Assembly: GCF_019693215.1 (NCBI RefSeq)
Contig: NZ_CP081183.1
Coordinates: 2,235,226-2,299,225 of the forward strand
Origin: Salinarchaeum sp. IM2453
GTDB lineage: Archaea > Halobacteriota > Halobacteria > Halobacteriales > Salinarchaeaceae
Length of the DNA stretch: 64,000 bases
Direction of reading: 5' to 3'
The stretch's first letter is position 1, and the number at the start of each line of letters is the position of its first letter. The position numbers and the translations under genes were made by a program. Positions 38,668-47,645 of this stretch are shown here, one piece after another. The notes beneath the pieces are model-generated. The model saw only the letters and a list, made by a program, of their open reading frames with translations, ran no database searches and was not told where the DNA came from.

Positions 38668-39154
38668 ATTGTACGTTATCAGTATTTATTCCTGAATAAG
38701 GCATTTCATTTCTACTGGCAGAACAAACTAGACACATGAGAGTTAAGTCTGGGGCGCTTCACTAAACATGAATCTCTCTGAGTAAATCCCAATAATGAAT
38801 AAATGTCGAACTATGATCGTATTTTAATTCGAATATAATCCATATGTTTGGAATTAATATATGATATAAGCAATTTATGCGATTTACTAGTTATCTCTGA
38901 ACTCTTCTGGAGTATTGGTTAAAATACTATTATTACTATCGATAAATATACTTTTACTACTCATATCCGGCGTTTTGAGCGCTTTTAATTCCCAAAAGAC
39001 ATTTTTTATTACCGCATAATATAGTTAGATATAATTAGTATTTTATAACAGTATTCAACGTCTTATCTTGTCCGAGATTGGTTGTCTGATTTCCACAATT
39101 TTTCCAGACATATGGTTGGAAAATCTTTTGTATTTGGTTTCTCTACCAAGATAC
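38668..39154. other. Long AT-rich spacer before rdfA
   Basis: 487 bases with very low GC and no credible coding frame. TATA-like runs occur near 39025-39050 ('gatataattagtatttta'). It is long for a haloarchaeal promoter, so it may hold several regulatory sites for the rdfA operon or an undetected RNA. No inverted repeats stand out. Confidence 0.35.
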
Positions 39155-39763
39155 ATGAGTGATCGTTGTAAGGTCTGTAACGCGATAGAGAAGTATGGTC
39201 TATCTGGATTCGACGAGAAACTTATTAACAAGAGAACTGTTGAAGAAATGAGTCTTCGCGATCTAACTGACTACACAAATAAAGAGATACTCCGCGTCGG
39301 TCTCTCAGATTCAACTATTCAATCTACAGCGAATATCTATGGATCTCTTCCAGGAAATAACGCCGTTGAGACTATTTATCAGCTCTTACATGATAAAGAC
39401 GGGACAGCAGACCAACGTGCCCGTATTCGAACACAGCTGCAACAAGAAGATATCGACATCGGTTCCATAGAATCTGACTGGGTAACCCATCCAACAATAC
39501 GTAAACACCTTCAGGAGTGTCTTGATGTGGATACAAGCAGGACAGTTGAGATTACCATCTCGGATGGCGTCGATACCATTGAATGGGGACGAACAAGGTG
39601 TCGAGGTGTGGTAGACCAGACGATTCAGCGACTTATGTCTGCTGATAAACTGGATATCGATTCTCCTCGAGTTACTGTTGATATTCAAATCACATGTGAA
39701 CAGTGTAATCGAACATACCGTCCTGATGAGCTACTCGAAAGCGGTACATGTGATTGTCAGTAA
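39155..39763 (+). CDS. rdfA: RdfA-family rod-determining factor
   Basis: A 202-residue protein with CxxC at the start (MSDRCKVCNAIEKYGL), a helical middle (LLHDKDGTADQRARIRTQL) and a C-terminal zinc-ribbon-like end (CEQC...GTCDCQ). The start, 'R..C.V..AIEKYGL', and the order of motifs match the RdfA family, named from Haloferax volcanii, where it is needed to form or keep rod-shaped cells. It is placed 126 bases before an SMC-related gene, as in other haloarchaea. I start at 39155 because the upstream 29 codons are hydrophobic and unlike the family. Confidence 0.72.
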   Translation: MSDRCKVCNAIEKYGLSGFDEKLINKRTVEEMSLRDLTDYTNKEILRVGLSDSTIQSTANIYGSLPGNNAVETIYQLLHDKDGTADQRARIRTQLQQEDIDIGSIESDWVTHPTIRKHLQECLDVDTSRTVEITISDGVDTIEWGRTRCRGVVDQTIQRLMSADKLDIDSPRVTVDIQITCEQCNRTYRPDELLESGTCDCQ

Positions 39764-39851
39764 CTATTAGATTGAGTGTTAAAATAGACAAATACTCCAA
39801 ATCCGGCCTTAACGTTGTTTCCAGAATCTAGTCTTAACAGCGTTAGATATG

Positions 39852-39866
39852 TGTATATTTATATGC
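39852..39866 (+). promoter_or_regulatory. TATA box of the SMC-related gene
   Basis: 'tgtatatttatatgc' is centred about 30 bases before the ATG at 39890, the classical spacing for a leaderless haloarchaeal transcript, so the SMC-related gene has a promoter of its own in addition to any read-through from rdfA. Confidence 0.5.
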
Positions 39867-39889
39867 TTGCGTAATCAGACAGTAGGTGT

Positions 39890-41821
39890 ATGGACAATCA
39901 AGAAGCACAAACGTCTAGTGCAGTATCTGGGCCCCTTTCCGTTGATGTTACAAATATTGGAGGGATAGATCAGTGCTCAATTATATTAAAACCGGGTGTA
40001 AACGTTTTAGTAGGTCGAAATGCAACAAATAGAACCAGTTTTCTTCATGCAGTTGCCAGCGGCCTTGGAGGAAATAAACCAAATCTAAAAAGTGATGCAA
40101 CAGAGGGACTAGTAACACTAAAAGCAGATAATCAACAGTATGCCAGACAACAATACCGACGGAATGACACTATTCATGTTGAGGGCAATGGGTACACAAC
40201 TAAATCATCATTAGTTGATTTGTTTGTTGCAACGCTAGAAGAGAACCCAGTTCGATCGGCGGCACGCCGGGGTGATAATCTTCGGGAAATTATTATGGAT
40301 CCAATTGACACTGAACAGATTAACCGCAGAATCCGTGACCTTCGGCGTAATAAATCGGATCTAGAATCACAACAGCAAAAAGTGACCCAACGCCGAAGTC
40401 AGCTGCCGAAGCTGGAAGAGCGTCGTCAAAAACTCAAAAGCGAACTTGAGTCAATTGACCAGCAAATTGAATCCCATCGGACTGAACTGTCCGAGTACCA
40501 ATCAGATTTGGATCAAACAGACAATACTGAACTTGTTAATCGACTAGAAAACCGCCGACAGCAACTAAATCAAGCAAAGGATCGTCTCGAAGTTTTAGAG
40601 GCTGAGCTAAAAGCATTAAACGAAAAAAGAGACTCATTACTTGAAGACGAAGAATCGCTTTCCGGGCGTTCACAGGGAGATCTTGATCAAGTGCAACGTG
40701 ACTTGCGGTCCCTCCGCCAGAAGAAACGTGAGTTAGAAGGAACCATTTCGGACTTAACAACGATTGTTGATTTCAATGATAATTTAATTGAAGGAGAAAC
40801 CGAACTTCCTGACGAAGTCCATCCTTCGGACACGACACTTGACCAACTGGCTCCAGAGGAAGATCGTCCAGTCTACTGCTGGACATGCGGGTCAGAGACA
40901 ACAATTGGGTCAATAAAGAGTCAACTACAGTCGCTCCGCCAGATAGTACAGGAAAAAAGAGATGACCGCACCAGTATTGAACAACAAATAAATGAATTAC
41001 AGGCTGAAGAGAAGGAAATTAGAAAGGCAATCGACAAACAGCAAAGCATCGAAAATAATATCGATCAGACAACGCGTAAAATTAGGGAAAAAGAAAACCA
41101 GGTAGACCAAACACGTGATCGAATTACAGCACTAAAGGATGAAGTCGCAACGCTTGAGAAACAGGTTGCAGATGTAGAAGCTGTTAATGAGGACGCTGCG
41201 CTTGAGATACATGAAAAAATTAGTGAACTTCAATATCAGCGAGGCCAGGTTGAAGAAAATCTCCAGCGCGTAGAAGAAGATATTAATGAAATTGAGGCCC
41301 TTCCGGATGAAGAAGAAATTCTGGACCAGATAGGCCAGATACAGGACCAATTAGAGGATGAACGAGCACGCATTCGGGATATCGAGAATGAAGTGGTTGA
41401 AGAATTTAACAACCATATGGATGTAATATTGGAGTTATTGGATTATCAAAATATTGAGCGCGTTTGGATCGAACGCCATGTAAGAGATGCAGAAGATACT
41501 TCATCCACATTTGAACTACATATTGTCAGAACAGACGCCTCTGGGGCTGGATACGAGGACTCCATCGAGAACCTAAGTGAAAGTGAACGGGAAGTTATCG
41601 GACTAATATTGGCTCTTGCTGGGTTCCTTGCGCATGAAGTCTACAAAGATGTCCCATTTATTCTTCTGGATTCGCTTGAAGCAATTGACGCTACGAGGAT
41701 TACTAATCTTGTTGAGTACTTTGCAAAGTACACTGAATACCTAATTGTTGCACTGCTACCGGAAGACGCAGGTGATATTACAGGAGAAGCCAACTACATC
41801 TCAGCAGACAAATTATCGTAA
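39890..41821 (+). CDS. Archaea-specific SMC-related protein
   Basis: A 643-residue SMC/Rad50-like protein: N-terminal ATPase half, two long coiled coils (about 135-300 and 340-500) and C-terminal half. The Walker A loop is unusual (VLVGRNATNRTSF near 42-54, not GxxGxGK[ST]), the signature region is NLSESEREVIGL near 560, and the Walker B is FILLDSLEAID, with Ser in place of the usual catalytic Glu. Between the coils is CWTCGS (Cys329/Cys332), placed like the Rad50 zinc hook. It may dimerise through zinc and bind nucleotide weakly. The pair with rdfA is conserved in haloarchaea (from memory), suggesting joint action on DNA or cell shape. Confidence 0.8.
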   Translation: MDNQEAQTSSAVSGPLSVDVTNIGGIDQCSIILKPGVNVLVGRNATNRTSFLHAVASGLGGNKPNLKSDATEGLVTLKADNQQYARQQYRRNDTIHVEGNGYTTKSSLVDLFVATLEENPVRSAARRGDNLREIIMDPIDTEQINRRIRDLRRNKSDLESQQQKVTQRRSQLPKLEERRQKLKSELESIDQQIESHRTELSEYQSDLDQTDNTELVNRLENRRQQLNQAKDRLEVLEAELKALNEKRDSLLEDEESLSGRSQGDLDQVQRDLRSLRQKKRELEGTISDLTTIVDFNDNLIEGETELPDEVHPSDTTLDQLAPEEDRPVYCWTCGSETTIGSIKSQLQSLRQIVQEKRDDRTSIEQQINELQAEEKEIRKAIDKQQSIENNIDQTTRKIREKENQVDQTRDRITALKDEVATLEKQVADVEAVNEDAALEIHEKISELQYQRGQVEENLQRVEEDINEIEALPDEEEILDQIGQIQDQLEDERARIRDIENEVVEEFNNHMDVILELLDYQNIERVWIERHVRDAEDTSSTFELHIVRTDASGAGYEDSIENLSESEREVIGLILALAGFLAHEVYKDVPFILLDSLEAIDATRITNLVEYFAKYTEYLIVALLPEDAGDITGEANYISADKLS

Positions 41822-42173
41822 ACTGTTCTGATGTTAATCCCTGAAGCAAATCTTTGTATTTAGATTAGATCAACCATCCTAAACACAATCTGAAATGATT
41901 CATCTTGTCTGTTCGTCCACATTTCTATGACGCATGTTTATTTCGACTAGGTTCGCTGTTAGGAAAAGTTGAACATAATATTTGAACATTAGATATAGAA
42001 TTCACTAATTCAAAATAAAAAGAGGCGTTTCAGGGAATATCAGTTATTTTCTGTGTATTTAGGTGACTATCCACTTTCTAATTCACTAATATTGAATGTT
42101 TTCTACGGATGAAACTAGATATGGTCCAATTGTGCCGATAAATATATACAAATCGCTCTGTCACGTAAACCAA
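41822..42173. other. AT-rich spacer before the IclR gene
   Basis: 352 bases without a convincing gene. A frame opening at 42096 runs into the IclR gene but its first 26 codons do not match the family. Likely contains the IclR promoter and perhaps its autoregulatory site; no clean palindrome was found. Confidence 0.35.
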
Positions 42174-42926
42174 ATGCACTCAAATGACTCATCGCGGCAG
42201 ATTCAGTCGGTCGCGACAGCGTTTGAAATCCTCTCTTTTGTCCAGAGGCAAGGCAGTGTTACACTTCAGAATGTATCTGATCGCTTTGATATTGCTAAAA
42301 GCACGGCTCATAATCACTTGAGTACTTTACATGCGATGGGATATGTTTCATCAGAGGGGAATACATACCGTCTGGGTCTCCGGCTTCTAACACATGGAAT
42401 GGCTGCTAGAGAAGCTATCCAATCGAAAGAAATGATCAGGGATGTACTTGCAACAGTAGCATCCAGTATTGATTTTCCGGTCTGGTGGATTGTTGAGGAT
42501 CACGGCCGTGGTATCTTCGTCGAGAAAATGGGAGATGCTGATGAAAGTTATGGACGCGTCGGAAAACGCTCGTATCTCCACACACATGCACCAGGAAAAG
42601 CAATCTTAGCTGAACTGTCTGAAAAGCAGGTGCAAAATATTATCGATATACATGGACTTCCGGTTCACACGGCACAGACAATTACAGATCCCGATGAATT
42701 GTACGGTGAGCTAAAGTCGATTCGGAAGCAAGGATATGCGCGTTCAAGCGATGAGGCAGCACTTGGAATTGAGTCACTTGGTGTAGCATTTTCAGGAGAA
42801 TATAACCGAGTTCATGCAATTGGAGTCTTTGGATATTCGCACGGCTTTGGGGAGAAACAGCACAGCACTGCTATTGTTGACGAGTTAGTGCGTGCTAAAC
42901 AGGAACTAACTGAGAAGCGCTCCTGA
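42174..42926 (+). CDS. IclR-family transcriptional regulator
   Basis: A 250-residue regulator: winged helix-turn-helix about 8-70 (VATAFEILSFVQRQGSVTLQ then IAKSTAHNHLSTLHAMGYV) and an IclR effector domain about 80-245 (SYLHTHAPGKAILAELSE, ARSSDEAALGIESLGVAFSG). IclR proteins bind small carboxylic acids and control catabolic operons. It is convergent with and 3 bases from the CitE-like gene, and the acyl-CoA genes follow, so it probably controls this island. The start at 42174 gives the usual length. Confidence 0.88.
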   Translation: MHSNDSSRQIQSVATAFEILSFVQRQGSVTLQNVSDRFDIAKSTAHNHLSTLHAMGYVSSEGNTYRLGLRLLTHGMAAREAIQSKEMIRDVLATVASSIDFPVWWIVEDHGRGIFVEKMGDADESYGRVGKRSYLHTHAPGKAILAELSEKQVQNIIDIHGLPVHTAQTITDPDELYGELKSIRKQGYARSSDEAALGIESLGVAFSGEYNRVHAIGVFGYSHGFGEKQHSTAIVDELVRAKQELTEKRS

Positions 42927-46218: not shown

Positions 46219-47645
46219 CATTCGTTCTAGTTTAGGCAGCGAACCAGCAGACGTGGCTACGGAAATCGCTGAAGCTACATGAGTAAGGAACCCGGTAGGA
46301 GATATGACCTACTCTCCACCGGATTCGGTAGTAGTTGAGCGAATCAAAAGAGCGTTTCCCTCCGATGAATTGCGCGACCGCGGTCGCGCAATGACAGAAC
46401 GTGACCGAAAATTCGACTTCGTCGCACTGTTCTACACACTCTCGTTTGGATTTGCTGCTGGGTCAGATCGGTCTCTTCAGGCGTTTCTTGAACGCTACGT
46501 GGAGATGGCTGACTGTGATTCTCTCTCATATCCCTCCTTCTACGAGTGGTTCTCACCAGCGTTCGTTGCACTCCTTCGAGAGATCCTCGATGACGCTATC
46601 GAGGATCTCGACCCCGGCAGAAACGACTTGAGAGGGCGTCTCGAACACTTTCGAGACGTTCTCATCGTTGACGCAACATTCATCTCACTCTACCAAGACG
46701 CTAAAGATGTCTACAGAGCAACTGGTGATGACCAAGCTGGGCTGAAGTTACACTTGACCGAGTCGCTTTCGACCGGCCTTCCAACCCGGTTTCGAACCAC
46801 CGATGGAGCGACCCATGAACGGAGTCAGCTACCCACCGGCGAGTGGGTAGCTGACGCCCTCATCCTGTTCGATCTCGGGTTCTACGATTTCTGGCTGTTC
46901 GACCGTATAGACGCCAATGACGGGTGGTTTGTCTCCCGCGTCAAGTCCAATGCTAACCCGAAGGTCGTCGAAGAGTTACGAACATGGCGGGGCAACAGTA
47001 TCACGCTGGAAGGGAAGTCGCTGAAGGGCGTCCTCGACGACCTTCAGCGACAGGAGATCGACGTTCTCGTGGAATTGGAGTTCGACCGCAAACGTGGTTC
47101 TTCAGCCACTGCAACACGTCAGTTCAGATTGGTTGGGCTGCTCAACGAAGACGAAGACGAGTACCATCTCTACTTCACGAATCTACCGCGTAACGAGTAC
47201 TCCGCGCCCGATATCGCGCAACTCTATCGGGCGCGGTGGGAAGTAGAGCTACTGTTCAAAGAGCTGAAATCGCGGTTTGGACTCGATGAGATCAACACGA
47301 CTAAACCTTACATCATCGAGGCATTGGTGATCATGGCGGCGATTTCGCTGATGATCAGCCGCGAGATTGTCGATGAACTCCACAAGCTGGACGCGAAACG
47401 ACGTGAGGCCGCGGACGCCGACGAGTCGGCGTCGCGGCTTCCTCCTCGTCGTGGTTCACTGGCGGTTGAGCGACATTCCCATCTGATTCAGTTGTACTTG
47501 ATGCTTGAGCTGGGCTACGAACTGCCAGATCTGGACGAATTATTGTTGTGGGCGTCGCAGAATCCAAATCCACACAGGGAACGGTTACGCAGAGAGGTTG
47601 AATCGGGTGAGTTCGCCTTTGACCGCGACTAAACTAGAACGAATG
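46219..47645 (+). mobile_element. ISH8-like IS4-family insertion sequence
   Basis: 1427 bases bounded by inverted repeats: left CATTCGTTCTAGTTTAGGC and right (reverse complement) CATTCGTTCTAGTTTAGTC, 16-17 matching bases, and by a perfect 10-base direct repeat. It encodes one transposase. Composition is visibly richer in GC than the flanking livK, consistent with an origin in another haloarchaeon or a shared mobile pool. Confidence 0.92.
46304..47632 (+). CDS. IS4-family (ISH8-group) DDE transposase
   Basis: A 442-residue DDE transposase. First Asp in LIVDATFISLYQD near 126-131, second in ILFDLGFYDFWLFD near 189, and the Glu region YRARWEVELLFKELKSRFG near 308-326 (Y-x2-[R]..E..FK.LK signature). 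The frame is intact and the ends are good, so the element is probably still mobile. It has its start 85 bases inside the left end and stops 13 bases before the right end. It lies in the same direction as livK, so read-through from or into the liv operon is possible. Confidence 0.9.
   Translation: MTYSPPDSVVVERIKRAFPSDELRDRGRAMTERDRKFDFVALFYTLSFGFAAGSDRSLQAFLERYVEMADCDSLSYPSFYEWFSPAFVALLREILDDAIEDLDPGRNDLRGRLEHFRDVLIVDATFISLYQDAKDVYRATGDDQAGLKLHLTESLSTGLPTRFRTTDGATHERSQLPTGEWVADALILFDLGFYDFWLFDRIDANDGWFVSRVKSNANPKVVEELRTWRGNSITLEGKSLKGVLDDLQRQEIDVLVELEFDRKRGSSATATRQFRLVGLLNEDEDEYHLYFTNLPRNEYSAPDIAQLYRARWEVELLFKELKSRFGLDEINTTKPYIIEALVIMAAISLMISREIVDELHKLDAKRREAADADESASRLPPRRGSLAVERHSHLIQLYLMLELGYELPDLDELLLWASQNPNPHRERLRREVESGEFAFDRD

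Follow-up and report, generated by a model that had tools for sequence, protein, structure and literature searches.

A divergent RdfA and SMC-related protein pair in Salinarchaeum sp. IM2453 and the conserved non-canonical ATPase site of its relatives

How haloarchaea choose between rod and disk shapes is an open question, and pairs of RdfA with an Sph protein are among the few determinants known. In Haloferax volcanii rdfA (HVO_2174) and sph3 (HVO_2175) are adjacent, deletion of either abolishes rods and motility, and a survey of 24 genomes found 42 of 54 RdfA and 42 of 50 SMC-like genes next to each other (Schiller et al., 2024, PMC10869688). The abundances of RdfA and Sph3 drop together in conditioned medium (PMC12240190). 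The introduction and discussion of the CsmR paper (PMC13286277) state that Sph3 promotes plates and that sph3 deletion leads to rods, which contradicts the source cited there (PMC10869688), where the sph3 deletion was unable to form rods. A 2024 study of Haloferax found lower gene-conversion survival in all four sph deletions, normal growth of a triple sph1/3/4 deletion under standard conditions, and opposite shape phenotypes for sph2 and sph3 (PMC11276520). Because the phenotypes of these paralogues differ or oppose one another, shape is not the sole output of such proteins. Sph proteins and coalescin were defined as archaea-specific SMC-related proteins (ASRPs), in most of which a zinc hook is found and in which Walker A and B motifs were described as present (Yoshinaga et al., 2022, PMC9389158). 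Coalescin (ClsN) of Sulfolobus, a hook-bearing member of the same family (PMC9389158), works in the chromosome compartments of cells without SMC, and PMC10869688 and PMC9389158 both cite Arcadin-4 of the Thermoproteales as an SMC-like protein tied to a cytoskeletal role in cell shape.

The window is the whole stretch of DNA analysed here, 64,000 nucleotides from Salinarchaeum sp. IM2453 (NCBI RefSeq assembly GCF_019693215.1, contig NZ_CP081183.1, positions 2,235,226 to 2,299,225 of the forward strand). The features of the pair that it carries, and of the gene that follows, are given here in window coordinates.

39155..39763, + strand: rdfA, RdfA-family protein of 202 aa (PF21811)
39167..39178, + strand: N-terminal C-x-x-C of RdfA, CKVC, aa 5-8 (sequence)
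39695..39757, + strand: C-terminal zinc-ribbon-like cysteines of RdfA, C181-x2-C184 ... C199-x-C201 (alignment A2)
39857..39865, + strand: TATA-like TTTATATGC, about 30 bp before the ASRP start (sequence only)
39890..41821, + strand: asrp/sph, archaea-specific SMC-related protein of 643 aa, Sph2-4-type clade (NF045487, tree)
40013..40039, + strand: variant Walker A GRNATNRTS, aa 42-50, Lys to Arg48 and Gly to Asn47 (sequence, alignment)
40877..40888, + strand: zinc-hook CWTC between coiled coils, aa 330-333, C330 and C333 (invariant in alignment A1)
41573..41590, + strand: variant ABC signature LSESER, aa 562-567 (sequence, alignment)
41663..41680, + strand: variant Walker B LLDSLE, aa 592-597, catalytic Glu replaced by Ser595, D594 invariant (alignment)
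42096..42926, + strand: IclR-family transcriptional regulator (PF01614 70.6 bits, PF09339 40.9 bits)

A sequence-only reading of this DNA had placed the pair at 39155-41821, where both ORFs indeed lie, and had taken the upstream gene for a homologue of the Haloferax shape determinant RdfA. The family profile bears this out: residues 5-202 align to positions 1-195 of the 195 in PF21811 at 169.8 bits, against a cut-off of 27. The ATG at 39155 agrees with the family as the start, and an in-frame TTG at 39068 would yield a protein of 231 aa. In the family alignment the first cysteine of the N-terminal C-x-x-C is variable and K6 is nearly invariant, and the C-terminal zinc-ribbon-like cysteines are found in most haloarchaeal members (alignment A2). 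AlphaFold2 models of RdfA and the ASRP were each built from two sequences and reached a pLDDT of 70, with the ASRP head poorly modelled. The model of RdfA is helical and includes a short pair of helices at 102-122 as well as a ribbon at the C-terminus, and structure comparison of this model (two input sequences, pLDDT 70) returned no fold match. Searches of the protein against DNA-binding families gave no match above chance level, and those against known SMC partner families no sequence match.

The second gene follows in tandem on the + strand after a gap of 126 bp, and its product covers the entire NF045487 profile (1-593 of 593) at 579.7 bits, with a cut-off of 300. The TATA-like TTTATATGC suggests a separate promoter and a leaderless mRNA for this gene. 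The N-terminal Walker A and the C-terminal signature and Walker B are in place, and GRNATNRTS and LLDSLE were both found as the earlier reading had quoted them; with Arg48 for Lys and Ser595 for Glu, the protein lacks the Walker-A Lys and the catalytic Walker-B Glu of a hydrolysing ABC ATPase. The same reading had likened a CxxC between coiled coils to the Rad50 hook, and the quoted CWTCG is indeed present: CWTC at aa 330-333 is the single CxxC of the protein and is flanked by two long coiled coils. It had also named poor conservation of the CxxC as evidence against itself, and the opposite was found, CWTC being present in 97 of 123 ASRPs and another C..C in all remaining rows but one. The head and coiled coil of the ASRP model match Rad50/SMC structures (AlphaFold2, two sequences, pLDDT 70), and the models support no more than an ASRP folded like SMC/Rad50 and an RdfA that is helical and matches no known fold.

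The window pair belongs to a known module, whose pairing, zinc hook and rod role are already published, and is one of its divergent members. It has the same two families, adjacent, as the RdfA-Sph3 pair that Haloferax volcanii needs for rods and motility (PMC10869688), but is part of a divergent branch. In a tree of 123 ASRPs the window protein sits in a Sph2-type clade of 98 rows (support 96), apart from the Sph1 type. Sph1 and Sph2 of Halobacterium salinarum lie beside rdfA as in the window, and Sph2, an accepted ASRP member, shares the Arg/Ser variant (GRNATGRTS, LLDSLE), whereas Sph1 belongs to the other clade, with ASNFQGKSS and LLDGIG, its Lys kept and Glu replaced by Gly. In the control genome of S. 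acidocaldarius the ASRP model cut-off was exceeded, and an RdfA search of the Sulfolobus control genome found nothing. Rad50/SbcC resembles the ASRP in having an ABC head split between the N- and C-termini, a coiled coil and a CxxC hook, and the heads are homologous, but its ATPase is canonical and its partner is Mre11, while the active site of the ASRP is a variant one and its partner is RdfA. Rad50 identity is rejected (best Rad50 model 53.9 bits against 700, and no GK[ST] or DE), as is that of a canonical SMC (TIGR02168 38.3 bits against 567; 643 aa, not about 1200; a hook instead of a hinge), and Arcadin-4 is a separate clade (NF053563 31.6 bits, cut-off 860). A defence system was likewise rejected, the best PADLOC match of the ASRP being LmuB at 48.9 bits, spanning the coiled coil and part of the head, and RdfA having none. 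So was a viral origin: phage records held no RdfA, an IMG/VR scan with the ASRP profile found no relative, and the back-translated GRNATNRT pattern led to 15 stretches, none with a convincing ASRP.

Across the 123 ASRPs the Walker-A position and the one that follows the Walker-B Asp read Arg/Ser in 92, Lys/Gly in 12, Lys/Glu in nine, Lys/Ala in five, Lys/Arg in three and Lys/Gln in one, with one truncated row carrying Ser. Walker-A Arg, present in 92 of 122, is coupled to Walker-B Ser in 92 of 92; Arg is never found without Ser, nor Lys with Ser. Lys/Ala appears at two separate places within the Arg/Ser clade of the tree, so that the two active-site positions change together. The second clade (Lys with Gly, Arg or Gln) corresponds to Sph1, where the Lys is kept and the catalytic Glu is absent; the Lys/Glu rows are all non-haloarchaeal, and the catalytic Glu is absent from every haloarchaeal ASRP examined. 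The ATPase motifs had been called degenerate in the earlier reading; that they are altered stands, but decay does not, given their near-invariance within the clade, and the word needs replacing by 'conserved non-canonical'. The texts of PMC10869688 and PMC9389158 do not discuss the active-site change, and the word Walker is absent from PMC10869688. As far as the searched literature shows, the coupled change is undocumented, as are the methanogen operon and the IclR link described below. In ABC ATPases loss of the catalytic Glu strongly slows hydrolysis, and nucleotide binding can persist. The same would probably apply to haloarchaeal ASRPs, and because the altered active site of the Arg/Ser clade is conserved, its members most likely bind nucleotide and hydrolyse it very slowly or not at all.

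The two genes are rarely separated. A scan of genomes for strict co-occurrence, proposed as a check of the pair, was run over 394 haloarchaeal genomes, 354 of them with RdfA and 349 with a strong ASRP match: both genes were present in 349, RdfA only in five, ASRP only in none and neither in 40. When the five RdfA-only genomes were rechecked with all candidates scored, no ASRP appeared, and their RdfAs were divergent or fragmentary. The genomes with neither gene are scattered across many genera, several of which include carriers, and repeated joint loss or gain therefore follows. The Fisher value for co-occurrence, 1e-49, ignores kinship and is a rough guide only. In the complete listing of 61 haloarchaeal genomes (92 ASRPs, 111 RdfAs) an RdfA lies within 1.5 kb of 80 of the 92 ASRPs, where chance would give about 0.2% per gene, and within 1.7 kb of two further ones; 31 of the 111 RdfAs have no ASRP within 1.5 kb. 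Frequent separation, which had been named as the outcome that would count against the pair, is thus not what the genomes show, and with both genes in 349 of 394 genomes and 80 of 92 ASRPs adjacent to an RdfA the linkage is strong enough to suggest one functional unit. Adjacent pairs occur as rdfA-asrp tandems (45), asrp-rdfA tandems (15), convergent (12) and divergent (8) arrangements, and that the genes stay adjacent whatever their order and strand points to selection for keeping them together as a unit, over and above any common transcript.

The Salinarchaeum genome itself has three ASRPs with an RdfA beside each; the further pairs (1938806-1941526 and 1179299-1181761) are both of Sph1 type, and the second ASRP has H. 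salinarum Sph1 among its best matches, at 43% identity. Over 103 distinct adjacent pairs, partner distances in the ASRP and RdfA trees correlate with rho 0.92 overall, 0.82 in clade A and 0.90 in clade B, with means near 0 for shuffled pairs in the same mirror-tree comparison. Where a genome has several pairs, the actual partners agree better than swapped ones in 28 of 29 comparisons, those made within one genome not being independent, and the RdfA partners of Sph1-type ASRPs form one group in the RdfA tree, bar two lone members. The RdfA-ASRP pair moves as a module, although the mirror-tree match is no proof of contact, linked and co-inherited genes yielding matching trees anyway. The host falls in a small family of Halobacteria of which two other genomes were in the sample. 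For both genes of the window the closest relatives are at four plasmid loci of Natrinema and Halococcus (Natrinema halophilum, N. caseinilyticum, N. gelatinilyticum and Halococcus dombrowskii), plasmid-borne, 43-47% identical and with the pair and its order kept; a named-genome scan with the ASRP protein gave a single relative. Haloarchaeal plasmid records with an ASRP number 130 and those with an RdfA 124, nearly all of them typed as non-mobilizable.

The IclR-family gene of the window begins 275 bp downstream of the ASRP gene, and the association recurs. Over 20 genomes an IclR gene lies within 2 kb of 17 of 52 RdfA/ASRP loci against 0.4 expected from genome averages, and about 30% of loci have one within 1 kb. 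Regional bias explains little of this enrichment, because IclR density collapses from 0.144 per kb within 1 kb to 0.000-0.005 per kb in the 2-50 kb bins, a ratio of about 30-40x. IclR is absent from the text of the Haloferax synteny paper (PMC10869688). The adjacent regulator probably controls the RdfA-ASRP locus or senses its signal; that of the window also borders a lyase-like gene on the opposite strand and could serve the lyase-like cluster instead. Farther on, 4.5 kb downstream of the pair, a 442-aa ORF at 46304-47632 looks by eye like an IS-type transposase.

Beyond the haloarchaea, NF045487 scores above cut-off in six of 112 Methanosarcinaceae genomes (six genera), and a match to the RdfA profile is found in exactly those six. 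The gene order is the same in all of them: ASRP, RdfA, then a winged-helix protein of 161-177 aa. The methanogen RdfAs match a haloarchaeal-only profile with E-values of 5e-12 and 6e-10, and by Pfam one scores 35.7 bits, above cut-off, and another 26.4, slightly below. The methanogen ASRPs have canonical motifs, NASGKTS or NATGKTS and LDEL. Because of these operons the pair is not restricted to haloarchaea and has a canonical active site outside them; the methanogens may have kept the ancestral form or may have acquired theirs by transfer. The third protein may contain two winged-helix domains like those of KITE subunits, and its matches are generic MarR/TrmB-like ones. SMC-ScpA-ScpB and JetABC are similar in that an SMC-like ATPase is encoded with small partners, the methanogen set including a winged-helix protein, but RdfA has no sequence match to the known partner families, and a kleisin-like role for it is conjecture. 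With its ATPase apparently intact, the methanogen set turns what the same pair does there into a testable question.

The explanation that we favour, with roughly even confidence, is a partner complex in which the SMC-like subunit binds nucleotide and hydrolyses it poorly, RdfA is its dedicated partner, and the rod state is what results in Haloferax. One inherited module would have RdfA and the ASRP as its two subunits. The ASRP would be a short SMC/Rad50-like protein, its ABC heads joined by a coiled coil and two copies meeting at the zinc hook, and the conserved Arg/Ser head would hold nucleotide and hydrolyse it very slowly or not at all, which would make the protein a stable scaffold and not a cycling motor. 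RdfA, with its helical N-terminal part and C-terminal zinc ribbon, would dock on its own ASRP and tie it to a target; the output of rdfA-sph3 in Haloferax would be the rod, motile state, and paralogous pairs would be adapted to other outputs. We infer the physical RdfA-ASRP complex, the slow hydrolysis and the zinc-mediated dimer, as we would any role in the shape of Salinarchaeum cells. What makes this mechanism testable is the coupled change in the active site, together with the operon of the methanogens and the link to IclR: the coupled Arg/Ser site predicts that ATP hydrolysis is dispensable for Sph2-4-type proteins, and joint inheritance predicts partner specificity.

Shape could also be reached indirectly, through gene expression, were RdfA a DNA-binding transcription factor built of an HTH-like segment and a zinc ribbon, with the ASRP as a chromosome-binding helper. 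The helical RdfA model with its helix pair at 102-122 and C-terminal ribbon would suit such a protein, regulators are adjacent (IclR in haloarchaea, the winged-helix protein in methanogens), and RdfA and Sph3 levels shift along with a large motility and shape programme (PMC12240190). We nevertheless consider it unlikely, for RdfA matches neither a DNA-binding family above chance nor a known fold, and a hook that is strictly conserved, along with a long coiled coil, suggests a structural role for the ASRP. Somewhat more doubtful still is a Rad50-like system of DNA recombination, repair or replicon maintenance, with shape change secondary to altered chromosome handling. The reduced gene-conversion survival of all four sph deletions (PMC11276520) speaks for it, together with the ASRP genes on 130 plasmid records, the chromosome-organising activity of the crenarchaeal ASRP coalescin (PMC9389158) and a zinc hook as in Rad50. 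Yet the loci showed no nuclease partner, their recurrent neighbours being RdfA and IclR, the triple sph1/3/4 deletion grows normally under standard conditions (PMC11276520), and Rad50 is a separate family (models at 54 bits against a cut-off of 700).

It is very improbable that the window pair is decaying and that its ATPase motifs are damage. Its RdfA (169 bits) and ASRP (580 bits) do score lower than most homologues and there is a transposase-like gene 4.5 kb downstream, but both frames are open from end to end, about 90 other ASRPs carry identical motifs, and the nearest Natrinema and Halococcus relatives retain the same pair in the same order; near-invariant motifs in the clade rule out decay of the gene.

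A more speculative extension of the partner-complex explanation, which we regard as improbable, concerns its origin. At first ASRP-RdfA may have been an SMC-like complex that hydrolysed ATP and had RdfA for its non-SMC subunit, a condition that would persist in the operon of the Methanosarcinaceae, and haloarchaea may have turned this complex into a hydrolysis-poor, nucleotide-held shape scaffold through the coupled change from Lys/Glu to Arg/Ser or Lys/Gly. If so, the haloarchaeal site would be a natural counterpart of the laboratory trapped-ATP mutants (Walker-B Glu-to-Gln).

Other archaeal ASRPs have neighbours of a different kind. RdfA was considered as a homologue of the Zn-ribbon proteins beside them, and this was rejected (hhalign probability 0.1). 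At five loci in Halobacteriota a Zn-ribbon protein of about 290 aa, a small AAA+ ATPase, a protein of 130-260 aa and an ASRP with canonical ATPase motifs form a conserved cassette that is possibly an undescribed system, and at three of these loci the cassette also has a second Zn-ribbon protein (267-334 aa), with a PAPS-reductase-like gene close by.
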